The notes beneath the pieces are model-generated. The model was given only the letters and a program-made list of their open reading frames with translations, was not told the origin of the DNA and searched no databases. Source: a virus. From it: a DNA stretch of 29,274 bases. Made by a program: the position numbers and the translations under genes. Of the stretch, positions 8,321 to 24,970 are shown in pieces; the stretch's first letter is position 1; the number at the start of each line of letters is the position of its first letter. The stretch is taken from IMG/VR virus record IMGVR_UViG_3300047284_000191, positions 1-29,274 of that record, one strand, 5' to 3'.

Positions 8321-8517
8321 TCTACTACTCCTACATGATACTCATATTCGTCTCTGAGAAAATTAGCGATTTTCTCTGCTTCATTATATGTATCAAAAAA
8401 GAGAGTTTTACTTTCATCTACTCCACAGGTGGTCTCACCCTCTTCCGTGTAGCTATACATAGGTAAGTACCTCGGACCTTCCTTGAAGGGTGGTGAGATT
8501 AAAATGAAATATTTCAT
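8299..8517 (-). CDS. Hypothetical protein (72 aa)
   Basis: A 72-aa soluble protein starting MKYFILISPPFKEGPRYLPM, with a helix FFDTYNEAEKIANFLRDEY and a final strand HVGVVECPENLS. The layout (strand, helix, strand) resembles many small phage proteins, but I recognise no family. Its start overlaps the upstream stop (ATGA) and its end overlaps the AbrB-like gene, so the three genes 8741-8150 form one coupled unit. Confidence 0.7.
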   Translation of the reverse strand: MKYFILISPPFKEGPRYLPMYSYTEEGETTCGVDESKTLFFDTYNEAEKIANFLRDEYEYHVGVVECPENLS

Positions 8518-8741
8518 CTCAGGTCTTCTCGAAGTGTAAATCCGTTCCTTGTCAGAAGTTCTTTGTAATCATCTAGTTCCAAAACGTCGAATTCCTCTTT
8601 GTGCTTCGGACCAATATCATTGAACACTCGGCGGGCATCTTCGGCCGTATGAGCATACACTTCGCTAATTCTCATTTCATTGCTGATCGGATCATAAAAG
8701 CGAATACCATACAAGTTAGTCGGTACATAGTCTTTTGCCAT
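8514..8741 (-). CDS. Hypothetical protein (75 aa), first gene after the late promoter at 8817
   Basis: A 75-aa protein (MAKDYVPTNLYGIRFYDPIS...) with a helix AEDARRVFNDIG and a C-terminal acidic helix. The pattern 'Y-A-H-T-A-E-D-A-R-R-V' is common in small phage proteins that handle amino-acid-like side chains in a beta-alpha-beta unit, but no function is known to me. It has a strong ribosome binding site (AAGGAGAAA). A late-type box CTAAATA lies 76 bases upstream, which makes it the probable first gene of the late operon. Confidence 0.75.
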   Translation of the reverse strand: MAKDYVPTNLYGIRFYDPISNEMRISEVYAHTAEDARRVFNDIGPKHKEEFDVLELDDYKELLTRNGFTLREDLR

Positions 8742-8816
8742 TTTTTGGTTTCTCCTTCAATTTTTCACGGCGGATTTTTTTGGATATGGGACTCCTGGGG
8801 GGACCCATTCGATTAA

Positions 8817-8823
8817 TATTTAG
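8817..8823 (-). promoter_or_regulatory. Late promoter (CTAAATA) of the structural operon
   Basis: The minus strand reads CCCTAAATATTAAT. The CTAAATA core is the T4-late-type box reported for cyanophages, and there is no -35 match. It is the natural entry point for the genes 8741 down to the baseplate cluster. The same extended string CTAAATATTA recurs at 21287-21296. Confidence 0.6.
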
Positions 8824-8942
8824 GGGTCGAGTGCAAGACTTTATAGCTTACATAGGACCCTTTTTATTAATATAACGGCCGCCCCCGACCCCGAAAACCC
8901 GCACCACGACTGGGATCTGGGCGGAGTTCGGTATACTTAAGA

Positions 8943-8960
8943 GGGGCATTTGACTGCCCC
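8943..8960 (-). terminator. Hairpin after the 51-aa gene, possible terminator
   Basis: GGGGCA and TGCCCC pair perfectly around a six-base loop, 17 bases past the stop of the gene ending at 8978. In transcript direction it is followed by TCTT only, so the U-tract is weak. It may end or slow early transcription before the late region. Confidence 0.5.
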
Positions 8961-8977
8961 CCAGTATAACTAACTGA

Positions 8978-9133
8978 TCAGAAGTCGATCATCTCAAGAG
9001 TGGGCACAGTGCCAGTCTGGGTATCATCGTCGCCCTCGCTAATCGTGTCGCTGGCGATGACATCGAGGATAGACAGAATCTCGCTGCCAGTGTTGCCTTG
9101 ACGGAGCATGGAGATCATCACTTGCTTAGACAT
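8978..9133 (-). CDS. Small protein (51 aa), MSKQVMISMLRQGNTGSEIL type
   Basis: The 51-residue product starts MSKQVMISMLRQGNTGSEIL, continues with a helix SILDVIASD and ends in an acidic linker and TLEMIDF. Short proteins of this pattern (a helix with R-x-G-x-T-G-x-E-I-L) are, from memory, common in marine cyanophages; function unknown. The ATG has no purine-rich ribosome binding site; its leader is the CA-rich type (AACACTCAACGAACCAACT) shared with neighbours. The gene lies between the DnaA-box inverted repeat and the GC-rich gap. Confidence 0.75.
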   Translation of the reverse strand: MSKQVMISMLRQGNTGSEILSILDVIASDTISEGDDDTQTGTVPTLEMIDF

Positions 9134-9191
9134 AGTTGGTTCGTTGAGTGTTAGTAAGTGTGCATTGGGTAGTTTATAGTCTTGCCGAGGA

Positions 9192-9231
9192 CTAACCTGT
9201 GGAAAAAGTTAATTAGTTTTCCACAGGTTAG
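9192..9231. repeat. 15-bp perfect inverted repeat built from two DnaA-box-like sites
   Basis: Arms 9192-9206 and 9217-9231 are perfect reverse complements around a 10-base AT-rich spacer. Each arm contains TGTGGAAAA/TTTTCCACA, which fits the DnaA-box consensus TTWTNCACA. A third copy follows at 9241-9249. In transcript direction there is no T tract after the stem, so a plain terminator is less likely than a protein-binding site. Confidence 0.75.
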
Positions 9232-9251
9232 GTATATTTCTGTGGAAAACT

Positions 9252-9575
9252 TCAGGCGATACGCATACCTGAGAAGAAGGGAATCGTGCCGTAGTCGTTA
9301 GAACTGAAGAACCATTCTCCTTTTTTCTGGAATACACCTTCGTTGCCAATTCCATGTGCCTGAAGAATAGCATTCAGACGCGATTTGGTGGTGTTTGATT
9401 GCCAACCACCATCGAACAGTTCGATATAGGTAGGGCCGATCTCAGCAATCAGATTGCCATGCAGATAGACCTGAGACTTATCATGACCCGAAAAGTACAG
9501 AACCTCGGTGTTATCGAGTTTCCAATCTTTGCCTGCAGTGATAGCAGCATTCATGAGACGTTCGATCTTACGCAT
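9252..9575 (-). CDS. Conserved-type hypothetical protein (107 aa)
   Basis: The product starts MRKIERLMNAAITAGKDWKL and continues with a beta-rich part (TEVLYFSGHDKSQVYLHGNL; AEIGPTYIELFDGGWQS) and a helix TTKSRLNAILQAHG. Proteins of this shape occur in cyanobacteria and their phages, without a known role. An open frame continues upstream to 9671, but the sigma70 promoter (-10 at 9643-9648, -35 at 9666-9671) lies inside that extension, so I take the ATG at 9575. No Shine-Dalgarno sequence is seen. The gene is flanked on both sides by DnaA-box-like sites. Confidence 0.8.
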   Translation of the reverse strand: MRKIERLMNAAITAGKDWKLDNTEVLYFSGHDKSQVYLHGNLIAEIGPTYIELFDGGWQSNTTKSRLNAILQAHGIGNEGVFQKKGEWFFSSNDYGTIPFFSGMRIA

Positions 9576-9642
9576 GGGAGGCGATTTGAGAGGGGTTAGA
9601 GAGGTCGGGGGTGGGGTTGTTTCCCTTCCCTCCGATGCACTC

Positions 9643-9698
9643 AATATAGGGCATTCTGGAGGGTCTGTCAAGCGATTTCAGATAAGCGTTGCTAATGT
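9643..9698 (-). promoter_or_regulatory. Sigma70-type promoter with upstream inverted-repeat element (copy 1)
   Basis: On the minus strand TTGACA (9666-9671), a 17-base spacer and TATATT (9643-9648) form a near-consensus promoter for the gene at 9575. Upstream, the plus strand reads AGATAAGCGTTGCTAATGT (9680-9698), a copy of the repeated element; its GAT begins 10 bases from the -35 edge, as in most other copies. Confidence 0.8.
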
Positions 9699-9714
9699 CA
9701 GAGATCAGGGGATT

Positions 9715-9795
9715 TTATGAGTCCGAGGTTGACAAATCTCCGAAAGTGTGATACATTGGAGGCTTAACTTGCATCTCTGAGCTACCTTTACTCAT
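9715..9795 (-). CDS. Candidate micropeptide (26 aa)
   Basis: A 26-codon frame starts MSKGSSEMQVKPPMYHTFGD. Its leader, ACTCTAACTAAAGC before the ATG, closely resembles the leader of the 79-aa gene at 12623 (ACTCTAACTAACACAA). Its stop is followed after 16 bases by the repeated promoter element, exactly the arrangement found after other genes here. These context signals, not length, support it. No function can be proposed. Confidence 0.45.
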   Translation of the reverse strand: MSKGSSEMQVKPPMYHTFGDLSTSDS

Positions 9796-9903
9796 GCTTT
9801 AGTTAGAGTTAAACAAAACACACACATATGTTTTTTTACCTATTTTTAATTGTGGAAAAACCTGTGGAAAACTTTATACTTTTTCCGCATACTTGTGGAA
9901 AAC

Positions 9904-10059
9904 TCAATCATAGATACGTTGTGATCTTTCATAGAGACGCTTATCCAAATGATCGAGATAATCATCTGGATTCATTACATCATCCCAATCAAGTTCATCT
10001 CGCTCTGTATAATCGGAATTGTAGTAATCTTGGTGCATGGTGTCAGTGTTGGTGTTCAT
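9904..10059 (-). CDS. Small acidic protein (51 aa)
   Basis: The 51-residue product opens MNTNTDTMHQDYYNSDYTER and is rich in Asp and Tyr (DELDWDDVMNPDDYLDHLDK), ending in a basic helix RLYERSQRIYD. No domain is recognised. It begins 14 bases after the upstream stop and so is probably co-transcribed with the 84-aa gene. An internal start at methionine 8 is possible. Its 3' end abuts a DnaA-box-like site. Confidence 0.7.
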   Translation of the reverse strand: MNTNTDTMHQDYYNSDYTERDELDWDDVMNPDDYLDHLDKRLYERSQRIYD

Positions 10060-10073
10060 GATAGTGTTAATGA

Positions 10074-10328
10074 TCAGAGGTAAAGATCAGGATCAATGTT
10101 ATACTGTTCGAGCAATTCAGGATAGCAGTTGTTCACATCCTCTACGATCTCGTTATCAGTCATTCGTTCCATATTCTCGCAGATCACATCATAAGCAAGT
10201 TGTACAAGTGTTTTCAAATCCATGTCATCTACGACCATTTCAGCATAATCAGAGATGAGAGAATCACGATCGAAAGTGTTAGTCATGTCGGTTGATTGGA
10301 TGATTTCAGTGTACAGATCAGTGGTCAT
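10074..10328 (-). CDS. Acidic helical hypothetical protein (84 aa)
   Basis: I place the start at the ATG at 10328 (MTTDLYTEIIQSTDMTNTFD), because a -10-like box TATACT lies at 10362-10367, inside the longer open frame that reaches 10436. A second possible start is residue 15 (MTNTFDRDSL). The core DLKTLVQLAYDVICENMERM is helical and the protein is strongly acidic. It resembles small orphan proteins shared by cyanophages and cyanobacteria; role unknown. The leader before the ATG is CA-rich (AAGACTCACAA) without a Shine-Dalgarno sequence. Confidence 0.75.
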   Translation of the reverse strand: MTTDLYTEIIQSTDMTNTFDRDSLISDYAEMVVDDMDLKTLVQLAYDVICENMERMTDNEIVEDVNNCYPELLEQYNIDPDLYL

Positions 10329-10361
10329 TTGTGAGTCTTGTTTGTTGGTCTGCTGTTGAAA

Positions 10362-10367
10362 AGTATA
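10362..10367 (-). promoter_or_regulatory. Possible -10 box upstream of the 84-aa gene
   Basis: TATACT on the minus strand lies 33 bases before the ATG at 10328. No acceptable -35 box is found 16-18 bases upstream, and the repeated inverted element is absent, so this promoter is weaker or differently controlled. Confidence 0.35.
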
Positions 10368-10422
10368 GGGCGAATCTGTTGGGTTTGTTGGCGGATTGCG
10401 TTGGTTTGGCGTTGCTCTCGAC

Positions 10423-10539
10423 TCATTTGATTTCACCTTGCAGAGTGTTTCCGATCCAGATAAATGCTCCCCCTATGTTATATCGAAAGCCAGGGGAAAG
10501 AATACACAGGAGAATGATTAGAAGCGTGATCAGGTTCAT
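10423..10539 (-). CDS. Small hydrophobic membrane peptide (38 aa)
   Basis: A 38-codon gene whose N terminus MNLITLLIILLCILSPGF is one hydrophobic membrane segment, followed by GGAFIWIGNTLQGEIK. It lies between two genes on the same strand with short gaps. The ATG has a CA-rich leader (CCCTCAACAAA). It would sit in the host inner membrane; no function is known. Confidence 0.6.
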   Translation of the reverse strand: MNLITLLIILLCILSPGFRYNIGGAFIWIGNTLQGEIK

Positions 10540-16928: not shown

Positions 16929-17891
16929 TCAGTAAAGCTGATTACGACTTTCTACGCTAACTTGCTGACCAATACAACCCTCAAACGGGAAAAATACAAA
17001 CTCAGGATCTTCCTGATACTTCACGATTAGTTTAGCAAAAGCACGGTTCACTTTTGCTGCTTTCTTGCGAAGATTCTTGCGGTGAGTTTCTGCATCTTCA
17101 GCAGATACTTTGTCAAGGAAACCAACAACGGGAGCAACGCTACCAGTTTCATCGAAGTGCATCAGTTGATCATACACAACTCGCTCGAAGTAAGTAGTGT
17201 TGGAGTTATTGATTGCAAGAACTTTCTTACCCTGACAACCAAGGATTTCTGCTCCAAGAGTAGCAGCAGTCTTAGCATTGAAAGACTCCATCGAAACAGA
17301 AGTGAGATGGTTGTTAATTACATCTTCACATGCTTTCTTCACTTGCTTTGCATCAAACGAGTGAGGGATGTTGTTAAACCAATTCAAACAATCTTGAAGA
17401 GTAGGAACAGAATCCTGTCGATTGATCCAAGCACTTAAACGCTTCTTGAAATCTTTGATTGTTGCAGGTTTAGAAGTGAGGTGATTGTTTGCACCCAGCC
17501 CCACCTCATCATAGGCATCTTCAATACTGAATCCATCGTTAAGTTCAGCAACAAGATATACCCACTTATCCTGCTTCAGATCAACAATAACAGATTGACG
17601 AGTATAACCATCAATCAAACGTCCATCTTCAAGAATAATGGGAGGCACTTCACTTACGCACAAACCTTGAGAAAGTAGACTAGATTTGATGCCAGCAGCA
17701 TTAACATTGTCAGTACCAGTTTCTCTGGCAAGATTTACAATTTGCCCCTTATCATTCACATAGATGATAGAATCTACATGGCGAATCTCAAGCCCAAGGA
17801 AACGAATTGTGCGAAAGACTGGGAACTCAAGATCATCGAACCACTCAAGTTTAGGAGTGAAACGAGACTTGATCGGGTAAAAGTTGGTCAT
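16929..17891 (-). CDS. ParB-N-like domain protein (320 aa)
   Basis: Residues about 60-110 match the ParB/Srx-like N-terminal domain in outline: GIKSSLLSQGLCVSEVPP, then IILEDGRLIDGYTRQSVI, where LIDGYTR (92-98) is the place of the usual G-(H/x)-x-R box. The rest is helical, with a Lys-rich region near residues 275-290 (HRKNLRKKAAKVNRAFAKLI). Proteins with this domain act as DNA-binding CTPases, nucleases or regulators; which applies here is unknown. Promoter copy 7 lies upstream, and an intrinsic terminator follows. The neighbour downstream is the ligase-like protein, so a shared nucleic-acid task is plausible. Confidence 0.65.
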   Translation of the reverse strand: MTNFYPIKSRFTPKLEWFDDLEFPVFRTIRFLGLEIRHVDSIIYVNDKGQIVNLARETGTDNVNAAGIKSSLLSQGLCVSEVPPIILEDGRLIDGYTRQSVIVDLKQDKWVYLVAELNDGFSIEDAYDEVGLGANNHLTSKPATIKDFKKRLSAWINRQDSVPTLQDCLNWFNNIPHSFDAKQVKKACEDVINNHLTSVSMESFNAKTAATLGAEILGCQGKKVLAINNSNTTYFERVVYDQLMHFDETGSVAPVVGFLDKVSAEDAETHRKNLRKKAAKVNRAFAKLIVKYQEDPEFVFFPFEGCIGQQVSVESRNQLY

Positions 17892-19014: not shown

Positions 19015-19893
19015 TTAGACAAAGTAATATAAGTCTTTGAACGAAATGCGTTTCCTATACTTACCACACTTCATCATAGACTTAAACGAAGTCAGATAAA
19101 AATCGCTGGTTTCTGATCTCCATGTGGAGATCTTTCGATTTACATCATCACAATCTAGTTCCTTGTCAGAGTGAAATAGTACATAGTTCCGTGATGTATT
19201 CTTCAGATACTTTTCACGGTTGAAGCTATCAGAAACTGGATCAATCCTAATGTTCTCTTGCTTGGTATTATCAATGGCAGAGAGTACATAATTGCCATCG
19301 GGCACATTGAATCTCAGTTTCACATTTTTGTTCCGTTCTAGATTGTGTGGTGTGATACGTTCTCCGTTCACAAACAATTTAGTTTTGCACTTTTCTGGAA
19401 TAAAATACGCAACACCTACAGGGCAATCTGTATCTTCAAACAGAACGTAGTCTAATTTATCCCAGCACAACAGTCTGTCCTGAAACATACCAGTTCCAAA
19501 GAATGTTGATGGAATAATTGCTGCAACATATTCGCAGTTGTCTAACATTTTTTCCAAGCAATCTAGATACAGATCCTCGTACTTGAAGAACAAAGTTCCA
19601 CCACGTCGCTTAAGACTATTCTTGGCAAGATACGGAGGATTTGTGATAGCTACCTTGTATCCTGTCGGAAAGTCTTTGAGCGTATCCATTTGTATAACAT
19701 CTTCATGCTGTGGTTCAATATCATAACCGCACCATTCTTCATTCAAGAAATTGTAGAGATTCCCTGCACCTGCAAAGGGTTCAATCACAGGAACATTATG
19801 GGGTCTCATACCATTCCAAGAACGGAAAGCACCACCACTAAAAGGATTAGTGGTGGTGAAGTATTGCCCTCGTAGTTGCTTACTTTCCAACAT
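19015..19893 (-). CDS. N6-adenine DNA methyltransferase (292 aa)
   Basis: The S-adenosylmethionine motif EPFAGAGN lies at residues 38-45, an acidic residue follows at D58, and the catalytic NPPY is at 85-88. The FxGxG-then-NPPY order is that of N6-adenine methyltransferases such as Eco57I-like enzymes. The C-terminal 150 residues would hold target recognition. I take the ATG at 19893 (MLESKQLRGQYFTT); a TTG two codons earlier is possible. It overlaps by 14 bases the gene upstream, which may encode the matching endonuclease. It may protect phage DNA from host or phage-encoded cutting. Confidence 0.88.
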   Translation of the reverse strand: MLESKQLRGQYFTTTNPFSGGAFRSWNGMRPHNVPVIEPFAGAGNLYNFLNEEWCGYDIEPQHEDVIQMDTLKDFPTGYKVAITNPPYLAKNSLKRRGGTLFFKYEDLYLDCLEKMLDNCEYVAAIIPSTFFGTGMFQDRLLCWDKLDYVLFEDTDCPVGVAYFIPEKCKTKLFVNGERITPHNLERNKNVKLRFNVPDGNYVLSAIDNTKQENIRIDPVSDSFNREKYLKNTSRNYVLFHSDKELDCDDVNRKISTWRSETSDFYLTSFKSMMKCGKYRKRISFKDLYYFV

Positions 19894-20587
19894 ATTCAAT
19901 CATCTTTTCTTGAAACTCTTTGTGATCACAGACCCAGATATTTTCCGTCTGCCGTGAATACAGTGTAGCATCTTTATTGCCATCAATCAAGACCACATAA
20001 AGTTTATCCTTGGGTTCATTCATTGCCCAAGTAATAAAGTCATTCGCTTCAATAAGTACGTTATCTTGATGACCACCAGTACCAGTCTTTACCTTAGCAA
20101 AGATATACCCCTCTACTGGACTTTCAATAAATCCATCAATACTCTTCAGTGATAGCTGTTCTTTACTCTTACCAGTGGTACGAATAAGTTTCTTAAACTC
20201 AGTATTATTTGCCAAACCACCATCACGCAAAGGTCTCAATTCGGTAGCACTTTTTGCTTGTCGAACAGTGATACCGTGCTCAGCAAGAGATTCAGAAATA
20301 CCATCAAAGATTTTCTTTTCGAGTACACCACCTTGCTTAGTTGAAGTCTTTGCAATCTCTCTCGCTACCATAGTTTTGATGATAGCATTAGAAGTACATG
20401 CACCAAGCATACGTTGCACTTGACCACCAAATACTTCATCTGCGACACGTTTAAGTGCCTCAACATTTATGTCTTTACTCTTCCACAATTTGGATTCTTC
20501 AATGCCAGAAAGCAAAAGATCTTCAGCAATAGTAATGTTATTGGAGCGTTGATTATCACGCTCTTCCCAAACATCAATAGTGAACAT
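19880..20587 (-). CDS. Candidate restriction-endonuclease-like protein (235 aa)
   Basis: I do not recognise a family with certainty. The C-terminal half has the look of a restriction-type nuclease core: SIDGFIESPVE (149-159) followed by GYIFAKVKTGTGGHQDN (160-176). Here D151, E159, K165/K167 and the G-G-H-Q turn resemble, but do not exactly match, a PD-(D/E)xK site: the residue before x-K is alanine, not Glu or Asp. The next strand is KLYVVLIDG. The N-terminal half is helical. Its direct overlap with an adenine methyltransferase gene is the main reason for the call. The ATG at 20587 has GAGG upstream. Confidence 0.5.
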   Translation of the reverse strand: MFTIDVWEERDNQRSNNITIAEDLLLSGIEESKLWKSKDINVEALKRVADEVFGGQVQRMLGACTSNAIIKTMVAREIAKTSTKQGGVLEKKIFDGISESLAEHGITVRQAKSATELRPLRDGGLANNTEFKKLIRTTGKSKEQLSLKSIDGFIESPVEGYIFAKVKTGTGGHQDNVLIEANDFITWAMNEPKDKLYVVLIDGNKDATLYSRQTENIWVCDHKEFQEKMIEYVGK

Positions 20588-20600
20588 GTTCAATCCTCAA

Positions 20601-24755: not shown

Positions 24756-24970
24756 TTACAATCCCTCGCAGGGTCAAAGTCAAGGTATTCTACCACAGGT
24801 TTTCTACAATACTCACAAAGTCGTTTCCGTGCTTCTTCCAGAGTATCATATCCACCATCAAAATAAACCTCATAGGCAAAGATATTATACCAAGAATACA
24901 AAAATTTCTCTTGTGGAAAATACTTTGTAGTATCACCATAAGTTTCTTTTTTGATACGATACTTTTTCAT
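24752..24970 (-). CDS. Hypothetical protein (72 aa)
   Basis: A 72-aa protein: MKKYRIKKETYGDTTKYFPQ, then FAYEVYFDGGYDTLEEARKR and LCEYCRKPVVEYLDFDPARD. 'Y-D-T-L-E-E-A-R-x-x-L' is the helix of a small two-strand, one-helix domain common in phage orphans. Both ends overlap neighbours. Confidence 0.75.
   Translation of the reverse strand: MKKYRIKKETYGDTTKYFPQEKFLYSWYNIFAYEVYFDGGYDTLEEARKRLCEYCRKPVVEYLDFDPARDCK

Follow-up and report, generated by a model that had tools for sequence, protein, structure and literature searches.

A conserved element with cyanobacterial DnaA boxes, a promoter and an AT-rich tract as a candidate replication origin of T4-like cyanophages

The box cluster and its surroundings

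The window analysed here, a stretch of 29,274 nucleotides (IMG/VR virus record IMGVR_UViG_3300047284_000191), comes from a T4-like cyanophage of the Kyanoviridae, in agreement with the first-pass annotation of this DNA as that of a T4-like phage. Its closest named relatives are the Synechococcus phages S-CREM1 (the nearest) and S-H38, both also Kyanoviridae, and it encodes a UvsW-like helicase as well as gp25-like baseplate and PAAR genes. Elsewhere on the minus strand, positions 16929-17891 encode a 320-aa protein with phrog_27790 as its sole match and no Pfam family, and at 19015-20593 a DNA methyltransferase (phrog_18657) adjoins a restriction endonuclease II (phrog_18366); to judge from these matches, the latter two are a restriction-modification-like pair in a lytic cyanophage. 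The features of the region of interest are collected in Table 1.

Table 1. Features of the element and its immediate neighbours, in coordinates of the window.
Feature	Position	Strand	Remarks
Inverted repeat, 15 bp, perfect, 10-nt loop	9192..9231		arms 9192-9206 / 9217-9231; holds boxes 1 and 2
DnaA box 1, cluster A	9198..9206	-	exact-word match
DnaA box 2, cluster A	9217..9225	+	inverted relative to boxes 1 and 3; position kept in S-CREM1
DnaA box 3, cluster A	9241..9249	-	position kept in S-CREM1
Kyano_Gp96 gene (PF23790, phrog_554)	9252..9575	-	between the two box clusters; tied to the element family-wide
Promoter-like site for Gp96, TTGACA-N17-TATATT	9643..9671	-	divergent from the promoter at 9729
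Promoter, TTGACA-N17-TACATT, TG before -10	9729..9757	+	reads into the T-tract and cluster B, against flanking genes
T-tract TTTTTTTACCTATTT, candidate DNA unwinding element	9831..9845	+	conserved; low duplex stability
DnaA box 4 TTTTCCACA, cluster B	9851..9859	-	exact-word match
DnaA box 5 TTTTCCACA, cluster B	9863..9871	-	12 bp from box 4 (3-nt gap)
Variant box TTTTCCGCA	9881..9889	+	one mismatch
DnaA box 6 TTTTCCACA, cluster B	9894..9902	-	exact-word match

An exact-word search of the whole window finds TGTGGAAAA/TTTTCCACA perfectly matched at seven sites, six of which fall within 705 bp, relative to an expected count of 0.59 for the entire 29-kb window, and none of 100 dinucleotide shuffles reached seven. 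The seventh site, at 24912, is isolated and is the sole one in the roughly 28 kb outside the cluster, so that the density of the 9-mer elsewhere is not equal to that in the cluster. With one mismatch allowed, the E. coli box TTATCCACA occurs 15 times in the window for 11.2 expected, which is not unusual; it is therefore the exact word TTTTCCACA that matters. The first-pass annotation had described the six perfect sites, the inverted repeat containing two of them, the single near match within the group of three and the AT-rich tract next to that group, and all four descriptions hold. The tract is at about 9820-9850, and its 50-mer, the least stable of positions 8501-10500, is in the top 1.2% of the window. 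In 11 of 13 sequences, the least stable 50-mer near the T-tract ranks at the 96th percentile or higher. The inverted repeat as a whole is not preserved in S-CREM1. The 12-bp spacing of boxes 4 and 5 recurs in S-CREM1, S-H38, S-PM2, Syn1 and S-SZBM1, and the variant box is also found in the elements of P-RSM4 and of loci L684 and L701.

Recurrence among cyanophages and match to the host DnaA box

Clustered boxes were present in all six relatives first examined. In 15 complete T4-like cyanophage genomes and that of T4, boxes with at most one mismatch were scored over 120 bp. Of the 15, 11 have a cluster of this 9-mer that stands out, and there is none in S-RSM4, P-HM1, P-RSM4, P-SSM4 or T4; S-CREM1, S-SZBM1 and P-SSM7 have two clusters close together. 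No cluster was found in KVP40, the Pelagibacter phage HTVC008M or P-SSP7. Shuffled words reach a comparable cluster score in a few single genomes (e.g. 4.7 in Syn9), and weight is therefore placed on recurrence at one kind of place rather than on single genomes. Counting the 9-mer in related complete genomes, a check proposed with the first-pass annotation, finds the word clustered at the same element, which is conserved and near single-copy (once per genome) in most of the T4-like cyanophages examined. S-RSM4 keeps the promoter and T-tract and lacks perfect boxes, P-RSM4 likewise keeps both with TTTTCCGCA only and no perfect box, and no element is recognisable in P-HM1 and P-SSM4.

A set of 48 contigs (3.6 Mb) chosen solely by a UvsW relative, and not by boxes, contains 136 boxes, as against 31 copies of the reversed word. 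Pairs of boxes no more than 100 bp apart number 90, versus 0.65 expected if the boxes were scattered. Such a pair is present in 23 of the 48 contigs and in 17 of the 23 that are at least 70 kb long, and many of these contigs have two clusters 330-1000 bp apart, like the window. Shuffles, reversed-word controls and pair counts set against scattered expectation thus reject chance clustering of the boxes. Promoter, T-run and box are matched together in 11 of 20 box-bearing regions from these contigs; the remaining regions include promoterless second clusters and at least one promoter missed by the pattern.

A scan of IMG/VR for the T-tract with one box gave 92 distinct matches listed, among which a further perfect box lies within 150 bp in 69 and a reversed word in 2; in a control scan with the reversed box a further box was found in 0 of 43, the totals of the two scans not being comparable. 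The T-tract plus one box thus predicts another box. In another group of viral contigs (L043, L045, L048, L056, L094, L096 and L132), TTTTCCACAGGTTTTTCCACA lies in a near-constant context without the T-tract. Many small contigs among the control-scan loci (e.g. L233-L239 and L241) carry TTTTTTWANNYATTT and ACACCTTTT in a unit with a constant total length of 42 nt, which is a conserved sequence in another virus group.

The word TTTTCCACA is the consensus cyanobacterial DnaA box, and paired copies of it were bound in vitro by domain IV of Cyanothece DnaA in gel shifts and footprints (PMC4674748). Among box-like 9-mers found up to 1.5 kb upstream of dnaN at 33 Cyanobiaceae loci, it is also the most frequent (18 copies); these copies occur mainly in low-GC genomes, and high-GC Cyanobium loci have few perfect boxes. 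The phage element thus has what is expected of an oriC-type origin in this respect, namely several clustered boxes that match the host consensus beyond chance. A DnaA-trio motif is present by eye at one host locus (L561) and is not obvious in the phage elements. DnaA domain IV (PF08299) is encoded in three host genomes and was absent from all 18 phage records searched, which comprise the window fragment together with 17 complete genomes; this rejects a phage-encoded DnaA, and any DnaA acting at the element would therefore be that of the host. A point against an origin that recruits DnaA is that replication proceeds without this protein in some cyanobacteria (PMC7198777).

The dnaN/oriC regions of the 33 Cyanobiaceae loci yielded no T-tract, and host oriC is rejected as its source. 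The same absence favours an unrelated phage or host protein with a preference for the same 9-mer as the ligand of the boxes. We regard this as the least probable of the explanations considered, as the 9-mer is identical to the host DnaA box and T4, KVP40 and HTVC008M, whose hosts are not cyanobacteria, have no clusters. A datA-like sponge, in which the phage would titrate host DnaA to halt host replication, might make use of consensus boxes in clusters, and phage copy number would multiply such boxes. Most genomes, however, have only 2-6 clustered boxes, in one place, and a sponge leaves the conserved promoter, the T-tract and the single position unexplained. Titration sites act without unwinding element or promoter, and both are conserved beside the phage boxes. 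Of the possibilities raised at the outset, this one has lost ground and now appears highly improbable.

Promoter, T-tract and neighbouring genes

The element has a recurrent order: a promoter (TTGACA and, about 17 nt on, often TGCTAAG) is followed after 28-131 nt by the T-tract TTTTTTWANNYATTT, and this, after 0-30 nt, by 2-4 boxes, often 12 bp apart and with the last one commonly inverted. A second box cluster is often found 0.3-1 kb from the first. The boxes adjoining the T-tract face the opposite way from usual in the window, as they do in L701, a close relative. Among the matches listed, 31 of 65 IMG/VR elements have the promoter pattern on the same strand upstream, and none of the 65 has it on the opposite strand or downstream. 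Eight complete genomes have the form G[TC]GCTAAG at the element; elsewhere among 18 genomes it is matched only twice, and it is nearly genome-unique in the other cyanophages.

In each of the six annotated relatives, and likewise among the open reading frames of the window, the element is oriented opposite to the genes beside it, and no recognised gene lies on the strand of the promoter in these seven phages. The box clusters do not correspond to terminator hairpins, none being listed there; there is no T-run, and many box pairs are direct repeats. An annotated non-coding RNA is also ruled out at the element, as an Rfam search of the window returned no family. In S-PM2 (AJ630128), annotated tRNA-Leu and tRNA-Asn genes at 19177-19333 overlap the box element and look doubtful; the element is the better reading, with the same promoter, T-tract and box layout being found elsewhere. 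Syn1 and S-PM2 share a short similar stretch, AAACACTAGGGAGT, downstream of the boxes.

In complete genomes having both, the Gp96 gene and the element are no more than about 2 kb apart, and 65 of 72 IMG/VR loci have the gene within 2.5 kb of a box pair. Its product has a confidently predicted fold (pLDDT 94) with no match in the PDB, and Gp96 was rejected as a known initiator or helicase-loader fold. Folds like that of Gp96 occur in many unrelated phages, and no cyanophage-specific role can therefore be claimed for it.

Two further explanations centre on transcription. In bacteria, DnaA is known to act as a transcription factor too, and the promoter could direct a non-coding or antisense RNA, its output gated by host DnaA, with no replication start at the site; survival of the promoter without perfect boxes in S-RSM4 and P-RSM4 fits with this. 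Nevertheless, a regulatory site needs neither an AT-rich tract nor a multi-box array extending over hundreds of bp, often in two clusters, and the absence of both a recognised gene on that strand and an Rfam family also weighs against it. We consider this explanation unlikely, if the foremost of the alternatives. The second, close behind it in our estimate and likewise unlikely, is an R-loop or primer-transcript origin comparable to T4 oriF or the T7 primary origin, for which promoter and AT-rich tract would suffice and the boxes would be auxiliary or serve another protein. The position of the T-tract shortly downstream of the promoter is consistent with such an origin, as are the two phages without perfect boxes. 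In one of these, S-RSM4 (NC_013085, about 140181-140290), a different inverted repeat, TTCTCAATA / TATTGAGAA, occupies the place of the boxes and is possibly the site of another initiator. The boxes, however, match that of host DnaA exactly, and paired and inverted arrangements recur despite changes in their order, which suggests selection for DnaA binding.

A probable origin recruiting host DnaA

Transcription-assisted melting and recruitment of host DnaA may also be combined, and an origin working in this way is the best reading of the element. By sequence, the promoter reads into the unwinding element as in R-loop origins, and by sequence and predicted stability AT-rich DNA of low stability adjoins the boxes as in oriC-type origins. 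On balance, the element at 9192-9902 is probably a replication origin at which this T4-like cyanophage recruits host DnaA. Among the proposals made in the first-pass annotation this is the best supported, given the cyanobacterial DnaA box, the conserved AT-rich tract and promoter, and the lack of a phage DnaA domain. Its chief weakness lies in S-RSM4 and P-RSM4, where promoter and T-tract persist but perfect boxes are missing; with these two, and with P-HM1 and P-SSM4 devoid of the element, DnaA cannot be assumed to be essential for all members. There is about an even chance, in our judgement, that T4-like cyanophages as a group begin first-round replication from one dedicated, often bipartite origin composed of promoter, unwinding tract and host DnaA boxes.

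We propose that the 9729 promoter, with no recognised gene to serve on its strand, would be used early by host RNA polymerase, and that transcription entering the AT-rich T-tract would aid its melting. Host DnaA might then bind the paired boxes of cluster B and, through looping, cluster A, and open or stabilise single-stranded DNA, onto which the replicative helicase could be loaded, either phage gp41 via gp59 or host DnaB. First-round replication from this origin would later be replaced by recombination-dependent replication. DnaA binding in vivo, melting, helicase loading, origin use and timing are steps that we infer.

Parts of this arrangement are familiar from other systems. T4 oriF and oriG are R-loop origins, in which a promoter reads into an unwinding tract as in the cyanophage element; the latter differs in having DnaA boxes, T4 being without a TTTTCCACA cluster. 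In the bipartite oriC of Bacillus subtilis and Helicobacter pylori, a gene lies between two DnaA-box clusters separated by a few hundred bp, and two clusters likewise flank a gene here, which is Gp96 and not dnaA; in S-SZBM1, unlike in these origins, no gene is annotated between the two clusters. Bacteria and plasmids are known to have DnaA-box origins. The closest likeness is to cyanobacterial oriC (Synechococcus elongatus PCC 7942 and Cyanothece ATCC 51142), with its clustered TTTTCCACA boxes and AT-rich stretch (PMC4674748). Unlike it, the phage element does not lie beside dnaN, has a phage promoter and T-tract, and is carried by a lytic T4-type phage. No paper linking cyanophages with DnaA boxes was found in a literature search that left the Syn9 genome paper outside its scope, and a DnaA-box origin shared family-wide by lytic phages of the T4-like kind would count as new within this literature.

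T4-like cyanophages are among the most abundant viruses of the ocean, and a conserved element with host DnaA boxes provides a precise and testable site for the start of their replication. If the proposed origin is real, phage replication would be coupled to the cell cycle of the host and to its supply of DnaA, a T4-type phage would depend on the cell-cycle initiator of its host, and T4-type replication need not bypass host initiators. GC skew is dominated by gene direction in these genomes. In 8 of 12 of them its detrended maximum lies no more than 14 kb from the element, but an origin would usually show the reverse of a maximum. A single theta origin has been predicted for the T4-like cyanophage Syn9, according to a passage in a review (PMC2984593), and Syn9 has the element at 52.6 kb.
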